Source: Longibacter salinarum
GTDB taxonomy: Bacteria; Bacteroidota; Rhodothermia; Rhodothermales; Salinibacteraceae
Length of the DNA stretch: 64,000 nt
NCBI RefSeq assembly: GCF_002554795.1
Contig: NZ_PDEQ01000002.1
Location: 248,001 to 312,000, forward strand
Reading direction: 5' to 3'
The number at the start of each line of letters is the position of its first letter. The first letter of the stretch is position 1. The position numbers and the translations under genes are program-made. The notes below the pieces were generated by a model. It did no database searches and was not told where the DNA came from. It saw only the letters and a list, made by a program, of their open reading frames with translations. Of this stretch, positions 3,509 through 32,429 are shown piece after piece.

Positions 3509-3790
3509 GTTGTAATTGTTGAATGCTTTGCCCTGGCAGAGTCGTCGTGACCATCGTTTGTGAGTGGCAGATGAAACACGCGATGCCACTCCAGTTGTCG
3601 CAGGCTATTTTTCCGGTTGGTCGCCTCGATTGCGCATATTCAAATGCGTGACGTTCACAACCTGTTTGGCGGATGGATCGCGATACGCAGAGACCGTTGT
3701 TTGTGCCTATTAGTTGGACGAACGGTGAGCCTTTTGCGATGACGCAGTAGATGCGGTACGGAGGGTCAACCGAGTCGTTTATTGTGAGCT
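3509..3790. other. Intergenic region with no recognised feature
   Basis: Together with the dispersed repeat that follows, this makes the roughly 500-nt space between the barrel gene and the next membrane protein. I see no convincing frame, RNA gene or promoter box in it. Confidence 0.5.
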
Positions 3791-3858
3791 TAGCGAGGAC
3801 CGACCGTCAGGAGGTCCGTAACCGTTGGATCGCTGAAGGCTGTCCGCCAAACAGGCTC
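3791..3858 (+). repeat. Dispersed two-hairpin repeat, copy 1
   Basis: Shares the blocks TAGCGAGGACCGACCGTC, GAGGTCCG, GAAGGCTGT and CCAAACAGG with the copies at 7191-7254 and 10636-10703. All three lie on the plus strand. The left part can pair GACC with GGTC; the right part pairs CTGT with ACAG. This copy ends 43 nt before the start of the gene at 3902. Confidence 0.7.
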
Positions 3859-3901
3859 TCGATTCCTCTCTCCGTGCTTGCTCGATTTCTGAATCTCCCC
3901 C

Positions 3902-7190: not shown

Positions 7191-7254
7191 GAGCACCGAC
7201 CGTCGGGAGGTCTGTACCTCTGGATGGGCGAAGGCTGTTCGCAAAACAGGTTCT
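7191..7254 (+). repeat. Dispersed two-hairpin repeat, copy 2
   Basis: Shares ACCGACCGTC, GGAGGTC, TGGATGGGCGAAGGCTGT and AAACAGGTTCTAA with the other two copies. The right hairpin is CTGTT-CGCAA-AACAG. It lies between the amidase and DinB-like genes, opposite to their transcription, and runs into an octamer tract. Confidence 0.7.
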
Positions 7255-7258
7255 AATA

Positions 7259-10490: not shown

Positions 10491-11152
10491 AACCTTGTTT
10501 CATGGCCGGATCTTGAGCTGATATGAGCCAAGGAACGGTCGAGGGTTCACGTCTCTGGCCCGAACGAAGGTATCTTCGGATCCGATTGCAGGAGCCACGG
10601 TGGGTACGGTTCACGAAGCTAACGTGCTGCGGGCATAGCGAGGACCGACCGTCGAGAGGTCCGCACTCTTGGCCGGCCGGAGGCTGTTTGCCAAATAGGT
10701 TTTAATGCGTATGGGAAAATATTCCCCAGTATCGGTACAGACGTCCCGGCAATATCTCCCTGCGCTCGTGAGTGCATGCCGCGGCTGCAGTGGTGCTCCT
10801 GCCCTGACGCATGATTCATCTTATATCGCTTCAACGACGTTCATCCACGGACATCGTCGAATCTGGTTGGTTTGCCAGGCCAATGCCTCGAGATGTCAAT
10901 ATGGCCTGACGCAGATGTTGGAATTTGGCGAGAGGCTATTTTAGCGTCCCTGGTGCTGCTTTCGTGAAGCACGTGTTGGAGGAGCGCTTGATATGTCGGA
11001 TACTCTAAAGGTCTACCTCAGGAGTGTGAGTGCTGTGTAAGAACTGAACATGCAGCGGACTCTTCCCCGTGGTTCTTCGTTATGAATGATCGGCACGCAA
11101 CTTGTATGTACTGCCCATCACGAAGGACACGAAACAACCCCAGACCTCTATC
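10491..11152. other. 660-nt intergenic region carrying the third dispersed repeat
   Basis: Apart from the repeat at 10636-10703 I see only short, low-quality frames (one at 10705-10944 lacks any protein-like pattern). No RNA gene is recognised. It could hold a decayed gene. Confidence 0.5.
10636..10703 (+). repeat. Dispersed two-hairpin repeat, copy 3
   Basis: Shares TAGCGAGGACCGACCGTC exactly with copy 1, then GAGAGGTCCG and GGAGGCTGTTTGCC. In the right hairpin CTGTT pairs with AATAG using a G-T pair, where copy 2 has AACAG, so the structure is kept although the base changed. Confidence 0.7.
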
Positions 11153-12889: not shown

Positions 12890-13198
12890 TCAGATGCTCC
12901 GGTCAACGGGCATTTCGAACGCTCGGACCGGGTGTTTCGGGTCGGTCTCATGGTTGAGTTCCGCGATCGCGTCAAGCAGGTGTTCGGCTTGATCGGACGG
13001 AAGGAAGGCCCAGGTGAGCGTCGAGTAGGCGGGATGCGAGGCGTGCCCGAACCATCCGACATCCACGGCCGACGGCGTCTGGGTGTGATGATAGCCTCTG
13101 ATATCGATTTCGCTGAAGACCTGGATCGAGTGCTCCCGGTACATCCGGTGCAACTCCTCCCGATTCGAGTCCAGGCTCATGACGGCAACGAGTTTCAT
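12890..13198 (-). CDS. PII-like signal protein at the tail of an RND efflux operon
   Basis: A 102-residue protein of PII length: MKLVAVMSLDSNREELHRMY, then VFSEIDIRGYHHTQ as the strand entering a T-loop-like region, and the C-terminal HLLDAIAELNHETDPKHPVR resembling the PII C-terminal strand-helix-strand. There is no ammonium transporter or glutamine synthetase gene nearby. A PII subgroup encoded next to metal-efflux RND genes is known; this protein fits that setting. It probably senses a ligand and modulates the pump or its expression, which is inference. It starts 53 nt after the pump stop, and the whole spacer is a heptamer tract. Confidence 0.7.
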   Translation of the reverse strand: MKLVAVMSLDSNREELHRMYREHSIQVFSEIDIRGYHHTQTPSAVDVGWFGHASHPAYSTLTWAFLPSDQAEHLLDAIAELNHETDPKHPVRAFEMPVDRSI

Positions 13199-13202
13199 GG
13201 TT

Positions 13203-13302
13203 GATTGTGGATTGGGGATTTCGAATTGCGAATTGTTGGGGCGTTGGAGCGTTAAGACGTTGGGACGCTAGAACCTTGAACCTTGAACTCTGAACGTTGA
13301 AC
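13203..13302 (+). repeat. Drifting heptamer tract spanning the pump stop codon
   Basis: Read on the plus strand the units go GATTGTG, GATTGGG, GATTTCG, AATTGCG, AATTGTT, pass through less regular 7-8-nt units, and end CTTGAAC, CTTGAAC, TCTGAAC, GTTGAAC. The tract fills the spacer between the PII-like start and the pump stop, and continues about 50 nt into the pump coding sequence. Confidence 0.75.
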
Positions 13303-16300
13303 GCCTTCGCTGGGGTCGCTGACGAGGGTCGTATCGTCCAGCTCGTTGCGGAGCATGAAGTAGATCAGCGGGACGATCAGGAGCGTAAGGGCTGTCGATG
13401 CGATCGCGCCACCCATGAGAGAGATCGCGAGTCCCTGGAAGACAGGATCGAAGAGGATCACCACGGCGCCAATGACGACAGTACCTGCGGTCAGCAGAAT
13501 GGGGCGCGTCCGTACGGCACCCGCCTCGATTACCGCTTGCCGGAGCGGCACGTCGTCGGCCAGCCGCAGGTTAATGAAGTCGATTAAGAGGACTGAGTTA
13601 CGCACCATGATTCCGGCTAAAGCAATGAATCCAATCATGGAGGTGGCGGTGAAGAAGGCCCCGAGCATCCAGTGGCCGAGCACGATGCCGATGAGCGACA
13701 GCGGGATCGCGACCATCATCACGAGCGGCACCAGGAGGTCCTGAAACCACCCGACGATCAGGATATAGATGATCAGCAGGACGACGGCGAAGGCGATGCC
13801 GAGATCGCGAAACACCTTGTAGGTAATGCGCCATTCGCCGTCCCACTTCAGCGAGTAGCCGTCGGTCGCGAACGGTTGGTCGGTGTAGAGCTGACCGAAG
13901 CCGTAGCCGGCGGGCGCATCGATCGCCTCCAGCTTCTCCTCCATGTCGAGCATGGCGTAGATGGGGCTCTCAATGTCTCCAGCGACGTCGGCCATCACGT
14001 AGACGACCCGGCGCTGATTCTTGCGGTCGATCGACTTATCTCGGACGCCTTCTTCGACGGTGACGAGGTCCGCGACGGGAATCATGGCGCCCGTCTGCGA
14101 CTGCACGCGAACGTTCTTCAGATCTGCAAGACTCGACCGGTGCTCCTGTCCGAGTCTTAGGTGCACGCCGACCGGTGACCGTTCCTCGGGAAGGTGCATC
14201 GTCGTCACGTCCTGTCCGCCGAGGGCAAGGCGCATTGTCTCGGAGATGCGGGCTGCGGGCACACCTGCTCGCATCGCCTTCTCCTTATTGACGTTGAAGG
14301 TGTACTTCGTCTGATCGTCTTCGACGCGCCAGTCCACGTCAACGACGCCTTCTGTTTCCTCGAACACCTGTCGTACGCTGTCGGCCAGAGTGACCTGCGT
14401 GTCGAAGTCGGGGCCGTAGATTTCCGCGACGAGTGTGGCGCGCACGGGCGGCCCCGGCGGCACCTCGGCCACTTTCACGCTGGCATCGTACCGCGACCCA
14501 ATCTCCGCGAGGGGGGCGCGCATCCGTTTGGCGATCGCGTGACTCTGCTCGTTCCGGTTGTGCGCGGAGGCGAGATTCACCTGGATGTCGCCCTGGTGTG
14601 GGGCGGAGCGCATGTCGTAGTGGCGAACCAGTCCATTCAGGTTGACGGGCGCGGCGTCACCCGCGTACGTCTGGACGTCGACAACCTCCGGCTGCTTCGT
14701 GAGGAAGGCCGACATTTCTCGGAGGACGGCATCGGTACGCTCCAGCGTTGTGCCTTCCGGCATGTCGACCACGACCTGAAACTCATCCTTGTCGTCGTAC
14801 GGCAGCATCTTGACCGTCACCACCCGGAAGTAGAACAGCGACACCGCGCCGAGCAGGAGCACTGTGGTCACGCCGATGAACGACCAGCGCTTCCACGGGC
14901 TGTTCAGCATGGGCTCGATGGTCGCGGCGTACCAGCGGTAGATGGCCGTTTCCTCGAGATTGTAGTCGGATTCGGAATTGTCTTCCTCCTCGTCATTTCC
15001 GCCGGCAATGAGACGGTAGGCGAGGTAGGGGGTGATGATCAGTGCTACGATGAGGGAGAACGTCATCGCCATCGACGCACCGATCGGCATCGGACTCATG
15101 TACGGACCCATCAGGCCGCTGACGAACGCCATCGGCAGGACGGCGGCGATCACGGTCAGGGTGGCGAGAATGGTCGGGTTGCCAACCTCGTTGATGGCGG
15201 CGATGGCCGACTGGAATTTCGGCAATCGCTTCATTTTGAAGTGTCGCTCCATGTTCTCCGCGACGATGATGGAGTCGTCCACCACGATACCTGTCACGAA
15301 GATGAGCGCGAAGAGGGTGATCCGATTCAGCGTGTAGTCGAAGAAGTAGTAGACGAAGAGCGTCAGTGCGAAGCTGATCGGCACCGAGAGGAAGACCACG
15401 AGGCCGCCGCGCCAGCCCATGGCGAGGCTCACGATGATCGTGACGGCTGCGATGGCACCGAGAAGGTGGATGAGTAGCTCCGAGACTTTGTCCGACGCTG
15501 ATTTTCCGTAGTTGCGCGTCGTGGTCACGCTCACTTCGTTCGGGACGAGCGTCGATTCCATCACCTCGACCTTTTTCAGCGCTCGTTCGGCGATCGTCAT
15601 CGCGTCCTTGCCGCTTCGCTTGGCAATGGCAACGGTTACGGCCGGGCGGAGCCCACCGGTACGTTGCTCAGCCGACGTCGATTCCGTCTCCGCGTTGTCG
15701 GAATGTCCGGCTCCGTATCCGAAGGAGACGTACTTCTTGGGTTCGGCCGGTCCATCCTGCACGTCAGCGACCTGACGCAGGTACACCGGACTGCCCTGGT
15801 GTACACCCACGACGAGGTTTTTCACCTCGTCAGCGGAGGAGAGGAAGGCACCGGTTTCTACCATGAAGGACGTATCGCCCTTCTCGAACGTACCGGCGTC
15901 CATCTGCTGGTTGGCAGCCTGGAGCTGCTGGGCGATCGAAGGTGGATCGATCTGGTAAGCGGCCAGGCGGTTCGGGTCGAGGGTGACGCGCATCGTTCGC
16001 GCGCGTCCACCGTGTACACTGACATCCGCGACGCCATCGACGGCCTTCAGGTCCATCGCCATCTCTTCGCCGATCCGCCGGAGCTGGTAGTCGTCGTAGT
16101 CCTCATGGTCGGCGTGGAGTGTGAGCGTCAGCACCGGGACATCATCCACGGCCCGCGTCTGAATCAGCGGCATGCTGGCGCCGGGCGGCATCTGGTCCAT
16201 GTGCTTGAGCATTTCCTCGTAGAGCTTCACCATGCTCTCCTCGGAACGCTCCCCGACGAAATAGCGGACCGACACCAGCGCTTGCCCGGGCATCGAGGTG

Positions 16301-31883: not shown

Positions 31884-31919
31884 AGCCCCGGACCTGCCCG
31901 CCAGGTTTGGGGCTTTTTT
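31884..31919 (+). terminator. Intrinsic terminator
   Basis: AGCCCCGGACCTG pairs with CAGGTTTGGGGCT (with mismatches near the loop), followed by six T. Confidence 0.88.
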
Positions 31920-31923
31920 CGTG

Positions 31924-31951
31924 GTTCAGGGTTCAAGGTTCAGGGTTCAGG
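31924..31951 (+). repeat. Heptamer array (GTTCARG dialect)
   Basis: Units GTTCAGG, GTTCAAG, GTTCAGG, GTTCAGG, starting 4 nt after the terminator T-run. Confidence 0.8.
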
Positions 31952-32024
31952 GCTACCTACCGGACACTTTCATTGGAGCGTGTGTCAATTCAGCATTTCC
32001 CGCCGCGGCTGCTCCGAAATGCAC

Positions 32025-32056
32025 GGGAGTATGTGAGTATGCGAGTGTGAGAGTGC
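32025..32056 (+). repeat. Octamer tract (GnGAGTnT dialect)
   Basis: Units GGGAGTAT, GTGAGTAT, GCGAGTGT, GAGAGTGC in phase. Confidence 0.75.
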
Positions 32057-32269
32057 GTCGTTATTGACCACGCCTCATTTCCGAAACGGATGAGACGTAC
32101 GAGATCCGTTTCTCGATGACATACGGAGACATTCCGGTTCGAAATTAAACGGCCCCGTAGCCAGCGTTCAAGACTCAGCGCTTGGCGATGAACAGACGGA
32201 TTTGTTCATCTCAATACGGCTTCATTGCCCCGACCCTCATACCCTTCCTCTCCGATACTCTCTTCCCAA

Positions 32270-32429
32270 ACGTCCACACTTTGTCACGTCCACACTTTCA
32301 TACGTCCAAACGTTCACACGTCCAAACGTTCACACGTCCAAACGTTCACACGTCCAAACGTTCACACGTCCACACGTCCACACTTTCATACTCCCAGCCC
32401 CCATACTCACACACCCTTATACTTTAACG
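32270..32429 (+). repeat. Long octamer array with four exact 16-bp copies
   Basis: Twenty in-phase octamers. ACGTCCAC, ACTTTGTC, ACGTCCAC, ACTTTCAT are followed by the pair ACGTCCAA-ACGTTCAC four times exactly (32302-32365), then ACGTCCAC twice, ACTTTCAT, ACTCCCAG and four more divergent units. All three plus-strand frames are open through it because the units contain no stop triplets. The space from 31858 to 32752 holds no gene I can support. Confidence 0.9.

Follow-up and report, generated by a model that had tools for sequence, protein, structure and literature searches.

Heptanucleotide tandem repeats dispersed in a genome are reportedly present in Calothrix under the name STRR (as cited in PMC4692102), and the long simple sequence repeats treated by Mrazek in 2007 are said to be of the same kind (as cited in PMC4679880). 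In Xanthomonas and Nostoc, heterogeneous heptamers of the types GGGAATC and GGGGA(C/T)T are described, in the accessible portions of the source (Rehm et al. 2015, PMC4692102), as mostly intergenic, occurring in sense orientation no more than 50 bp from stop codons, some of which they overlap, and in antisense orientation upstream of ORFs. According to the same portions, the 5' side of these heptamers is nearest the ORF, and sister species harbor them in the same spacers with other lengths and sequences. TAACTGA direct repeats of Beggiatoaceae are likewise intergenic heptamers beside codons, and the available part of that report names 13 ORFs with stop-overlapping repeats (PMC4679880). Tandem repeats within ORFs of Borgs give rise to new, fast-evolving protein segments, with nearly perfect units that are multiples of three in the sections at hand (PMC9879509). 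Among the papers listed in our literature search, none dealt with tracts of this sort in Salinibacter or Rhodothermota.

The tract analyzed here lies at the 3' end of an RND efflux pump gene within a stretch of 64,000 nucleotides (the window) of genome G000. Compared with the accessible description of the Xanthomonas and Nostoc heptamers (PMC4692102), the tracts of this genome are built from GTTCANN, GGATTNN and GCGAANN types and additionally from 8-nt units, and one of them replaces 16 protein residues. They share an intergenic location and stop overlap with the TAACTGA repeats, which in the part of the source available consist of one fixed unit, whereas many degenerate unit families and 8-nt units are found here (PMC4679880). 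As with the Borg repeats, new protein sequence arises from repeat DNA; unlike the Borg units in the sections at hand (PMC9879509), those found here have a period of 7/8 nt and neighbor-unit identities of only about 78% and 71%, which sets them apart from amino-acid tandem repeats of the Borg type.

The pump contains the full Pfam profile ACR_tran (residues 15-1072, E 4.5e-166, profile positions 5-1020 of 1021), confirming it as an RND transporter. On the minus strand its frame ends with LDDTTLVSDPSEG, followed directly by VQRSEFKVQGSSVPTS and a TAA stop codon, and a spacer of 53 nt separates it from the start of the downstream gene at 13198. A tract at 13199-13302 occupies all of this spacer and encodes pump residues 1089-1104 together with the stop codon, C-terminal of the end of ACR_tran. 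A lag-match scan resolves it into three contiguous blocks (Table 1), in agreement with the sequence-only reading that the tract fills the spacer and runs into the pump frame; such segments are nearly absent from shuffled sequence. That reading had derived the pump end from GTTCARG heptamers, which is correct for the first 12 tract-encoded residues, VQRSEFKVQGSS, originating from the GTTCANN block, and incorrect for the last four, VPTS, and the stop codon, which are encoded by the 8-nt block (CGTCCCAA CGTCTTAA). The unit change it described along the tract is real and is partly a switch of strand orientation: the tract is G-rich outward from the pump and then outward from the neighboring gene, where the adjoining block is C-rich on the coding strand. 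The spacer is made up of two opposed arms of different unit families. The downstream gene, earlier labeled PII-like, yields no match in Pfam or NCBIfam and a best PDB match of only E 0.95, leaving this label unconfirmed.

Table 1 Features at the 3' end of the pump gene (window coordinates)
Feature	Position	Strand	Basis or detail
RND efflux pump gene, 1104 aa	13252..16566	-	ORF and translation, Pfam
Ancestral-tail remnant LDDTTLVSDPSEG, between pump core and tract	13303..13341	-	compared with LEDTALVSDPSSAG (G002) and LADTTLVSGPTNG (G004)
Period-7 block GTTCAAC GTTCAGA GTTCAAG GTTCAAG GTTCTAG, in pump frame	13268..13303	-	lag-match score 19
Period-8 block CGTCCCAA CGTCTTAA CGCTCCAA CGCCCCAA, holds the new TAA stop (13252-13254)	13235..13274	-	lag-match score 12
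Period-7 block CAATTCG CAATTCG AAATCCC CAATCCA, reaching the next start codon	13194..13235	-	lag-match score 19
Small gene, 102 aa, 3' of the pump ("PII-like" in the earlier reading)	12890..13198	-	ORF; follows the pump in relatives

Pump tails were recovered at 99 of 104 loci, three further loci giving no core match and two giving matches that ended short. One of these tails is that of the window itself, and the remaining 98 include 7 that stem from contigs present twice; comparisons used one genome per species, with two genomes representing the genus of the window. The longest run that the window tail has in common with any of the 98 is three residues, and it lies outside the Pfam domain, in line with the earlier statement that it does not resemble an RND C-terminus; the alignment of orthologues proposed at the time thus revealed no matching conserved tail in distant relatives. 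Many flavobacterial pump relatives end three residues past the core. Within the family, tails comprise 43 (G002), 41 (G004), 42 (G006) and 43 residues (G017), which differ from the window tail and stop elsewhere. Only the start of this family tail is kept in the window, where LDDTTLVSDPSEG, resembling LEDTALVSDPSSAG of G002, is followed by the tract. In the congener G001, the pump stops after LADTALVAE, a tail of nine residues, and an 8-nt tract is located in the spacer, outside the gene; the contig of this genome has the same length and the same tail as GSL.Bin3 in L032. In G006, a heptamer tract directly follows the stop codon of its 42-residue tail. The tail of the window pump is therefore tract-derived and lineage-specific. 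The comparison with G002, G001 and G006 largely supports that the tract took the place of a distal older tail, the old stop codon and the old spacer; the earlier suggestion of a displaced or overwritten stop is right in that the old stop is lost, and can be refined to a replacement in which an ancestral tail, about 41-43 residues long, also gave up its distal portion.

A further case was found among the nine pump orthologues of genus g8, eight of which have tract-free tails (seven of 11-13 residues, and the 43-residue tail of G017). The pump of the ninth, G008, ends with IMSHES, encoded by GAGTCAC-type units (lag-7 score 21), and is a separate replacement of the tail of the same gene, by another heptamer and in another genus. 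Its spacer to the next gene measures 324 nt (L306:1013-1336) and contains short-repeat arms; in most genus mates, as far as the next start could be seen, it is about 40-47 nt long. G008 has one copy of the insert, and the four genus mates searched (G012, G015, G020 and G017) have none, so that the reading as a mobile element was rejected.

To place the pump tract in its genomic context, repeat periods were compared with shuffled sequence. The window contains seven period-7 and four period-8 segments with a score of at least 12, whereas 10 Markov shuffles averaged 0.0 and 0.1, respectively; other periods occur approximately at chance level, the exceptions being 14, as a multiple, and a small number of segments with periods 12 and 4. 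Larger samples of G000, each controlled by one shuffle, exceed shuffled sequence at lags 7, 8, 14 and 16, and also show the additional signal at multiples of three that coding DNA should give. A survey of 1.264 Mb (about 29%) of this genome, in which gene boundaries outside the pump came from a home-made caller, identified 55 tracts, hence many spacer copies in one genome. With 7-nt units above chance, these tracts belong to the heptanucleotide tandem repeats (STRR, long simple sequence repeats), part of the pump tract having period 8. In 21 of the 55, a tract edge falls near a stop codon, at most 7 nt beyond it or 20 nt into the gene, compared with 5.2 expected and a maximum of 14 in 200 random placements of the same tract lengths, so that stop-abutting tracts are about four times commoner than random placement gives. 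Tracts usually end at a gene end. The canonical unit AGGGTTC is present in 13/55 tracts at unrelated loci, and unit families are also common to the congener, where many spacers likewise contain tracts; local slippage acting independently at each locus is thereby less favored than dispersal or a shared bias. A unit grammar of five fixed plus two variable positions was not adopted, column conservation being only slightly above a random-mutation null. In orthologous spacers, position and two-arm layout can persist while units differ; this applies to the pump spacer and to C3:39468-39603, both with a tract in G000, G001 and G006. No tract is present in either orthologous spacer of G004, and the scan detected none in G002.

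Several other arrangements were also noted. Two regions of contig C1 (1-200000 and 400001-600000) contain only 2 tracts in 400 kb, whereas C2 and C3 have 53 in 864 kb. The largest array of the window (32266-32392) consists of 8/16-nt units (ACGTCCAAACGTTCAC) with 7.1 copies of the 16-mer, and a heptamer array of 1161 nt with GCTTTCA units occupies L323:12902-14062 in G033, from another family of the order. A palindrome, ACCACCGTCGCACGGCCGTGCGACGGTGGT, adjoins heptamer/octamer tracts in two spacers (L338; G000 C3:24866-24903). A dispersed MITE-like family of about 205 bp, with the ends AACCTGTTTGGCGGA and TCCGCCAAACAGGTT, is found in many G000 spacers and is represented by copies or fragments at window positions 3651-3864, 7191-7257 and 10623-10703. 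At 31918-32167, a GTTCAGG tract precedes pieces of elements whose ends resemble CTACCTACCGGAC and CTAGCTACCGGAC and which enclose an 8-nt tract; comparable layouts occur in other spacers.

At gene boundaries, tract orientation follows a rule. Reading 5' to 3' away from the gene, G exceeds C in 29/29 G000 tracts that lie no more than 20 nt from such a boundary (22/22 at stops, 7/7 at starts), as in the heptamers of Xanthomonas and Nostoc, whose G-rich strand leads away from the nearest ORF in the accessible description (PMC4692102). Including every tract with genes on both sides (53 of 55), the rule holds for 44/53, the pump-internal block being among the nine failures because its near gene is mis-assigned. 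It is also observed in G001 (6/6) and, with repeated loci counted once, in G006 (15/16). Tracts of G033, outward G-rich in 1/2 and 2/3 cases within 20 nt, have a near-zero G/C skew that is too balanced to bear on the rule. Among 743 control stretches of 40 nt located after stop codons and free of tracts, 279 are G-rich and 403 C-rich, and stop-side G-richness therefore opposes the background. Upstream of starts, 692/832 control sites are C-rich, so that the start-side orientation may reflect background alone. A G3 quadruplex motif occurs in just 3/29 abutting tracts and on neither strand of the pump tract, which speaks against G-quadruplexes as the cause of the orientation; the 26/29 tracts lacking the motif differ in this respect from the heptamers described in the accessible portions of PMC4692102.

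The sequence-only reading had further proposed that these tracts are active enough to alter proteins. This is true of the pump, the only one of the 55 cases in which a tract supplies as much as 16 residues of protein. Three other genes with a tract overlap of 13-17 nt, which we take to encode RsmB-like, NupC-like and CusA-like proteins, have C-termini conserved within 0-2 residues in their closest relatives, with matches reaching query positions 128 of 129 (G001), 142 of 142 (several genomes) and 171 of 173 (G001); more distant homologues of the third mostly end earlier. The check covered three of four such overlaps, the fourth being one of 16 nt in a 101-aa ORF. At the three genes, the scan therefore mostly ran on by chance into the coding sequence; absorption of gene ends is rare rather than general, and the case for protein alteration as a frequent effect is weak.

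Collectively, we favor, with a probability of roughly 0.75 for the account as a whole, that a short tandem tract of degenerate 7- and 8-nt units, which fills the spacer to the neighboring gene, has rewritten the C-terminus of the pump. Such a tract would arise and turn over through slippage-like duplication in a 7/8-nt register, and would spread in unconstrained spacer until halted at gene ends by purifying selection. The old pump stop may have been passed because RND tail sequence past the transporter domain is presumably free of constraint and because GTTCARG contains no stop codon in any frame, so that translation would continue to the TAA of the oppositely oriented 8-nt block. Slippage combined with purifying selection is the most economical account and agrees well with the pump, whose tail would be a tolerated overshoot; the new tail is most likely neutral, and a function is not indicated. 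Slippage alone does not explain the common unit families or the outward orientation.

Alternatives have to be weighed against this account. It is scarcely credible that this RND subfamily ordinarily has such a tail, as a conserved or functional extension of the C-terminus that is repetitive by accident. C-terminal extensions are common in orthologues of the same family, reaching 64 residues, and extension itself is not odd, but the reading is largely refuted by the comparison with 98 tails, none with more than three consecutive residues in common, and by the DNA, which has a period of 7 rather than of codon multiples and runs past the stop codon through the whole spacer. We also consider it unlikely that the tract is a regulatory RNA or DNA element (terminator, attenuator, G-quadruplex or protein-binding array) selected at gene ends, with the tail as a by-product. 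The strict orientation at stops and the position kept between genera while units change would fit such a role, as would precedents in the available parts of the literature, where most of the heptamers described are transcribed (PMC4692102) and a role as translational regulator sites is suggested for the TAACTGA repeats (PMC4679880). The pump tract, however, shows no RNA fold signal (z 0.40) and no terminator-like site, making a terminator role unlikely and leaving structured RNA unsupported; G3 motifs are rare in abutting tracts, and the orthologous spacers of G002 and G004 lack tracts.

Insertion of small dispersed MITE/SDR-like elements, of which the tract would be a part or a target and which would have carried it to the pump end, appears quite improbable. 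Dispersed repeats are enriched in tract spacers (17/36 versus 63/688 others, Fisher p 1.7e-8), an association that is confounded by spacer length; GTTCAGG units flank several elements, and the G008 spacer is enlarged, albeit by a single-copy insert. The pump spacer of just 53 nt is too small for such an element and contains none; its matches elsewhere in G000 and G001 are confined to repeat units and composite arms. Moreover, all 17 abutting tracts in spacers of up to 250 nt obey the orientation rule (17/17), which accordingly needs no large inserted element. The outward G-richness in G000, G001 and G006 and the two opposed arms of the pump spacer could alternatively point at gene boundaries that seed outward growth by extension of G-rich 3' ends, comparable to chromosome-end healing, with arms meeting head to head. 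We regard this as highly doubtful, since identity shows no proximal-to-distal gradient along 24 arms (p 0.30; the filter excluded AT-rich tracts), which argues against outward growth, unique sequence is often located between arms rather than outside them, and start-side C-richness equals the genome background. End extension would account for the orientation, yet has no candidate enzyme here: templating by a reverse transcriptase was rejected, RVT_1 being detected in 12/60 genomes searched and absent from the tract-bearing G000, G001 and G006. A variant without need for RVT_1, in which an unknown telomere-like, 3'-end-extending activity seeds outward G-rich 7/8-nt arrays at gene boundaries, arms meet in the spacer, units are rewritten between genera and C-termini are occasionally replaced, is a comparably long shot.

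Both the repeat class and the overlap of heptamers with stop codons are already known, as the accessible portions of earlier reports document (PMC4679880, PMC4692102). The present analysis adds a comparative case of tail replacement and extends the orientation rule to units mostly devoid of quadruplex motifs. That a rule of quadruplex-forming heptamers holds for such tracts points away from a quadruplex cause and raises the question of what mechanism reads gene boundaries. At the pump gene, intergenic repeat DNA has turned into protein sequence at a gene end while relatives are in other states, and the second, independent replacement event in the same gene adds to this comparative case.
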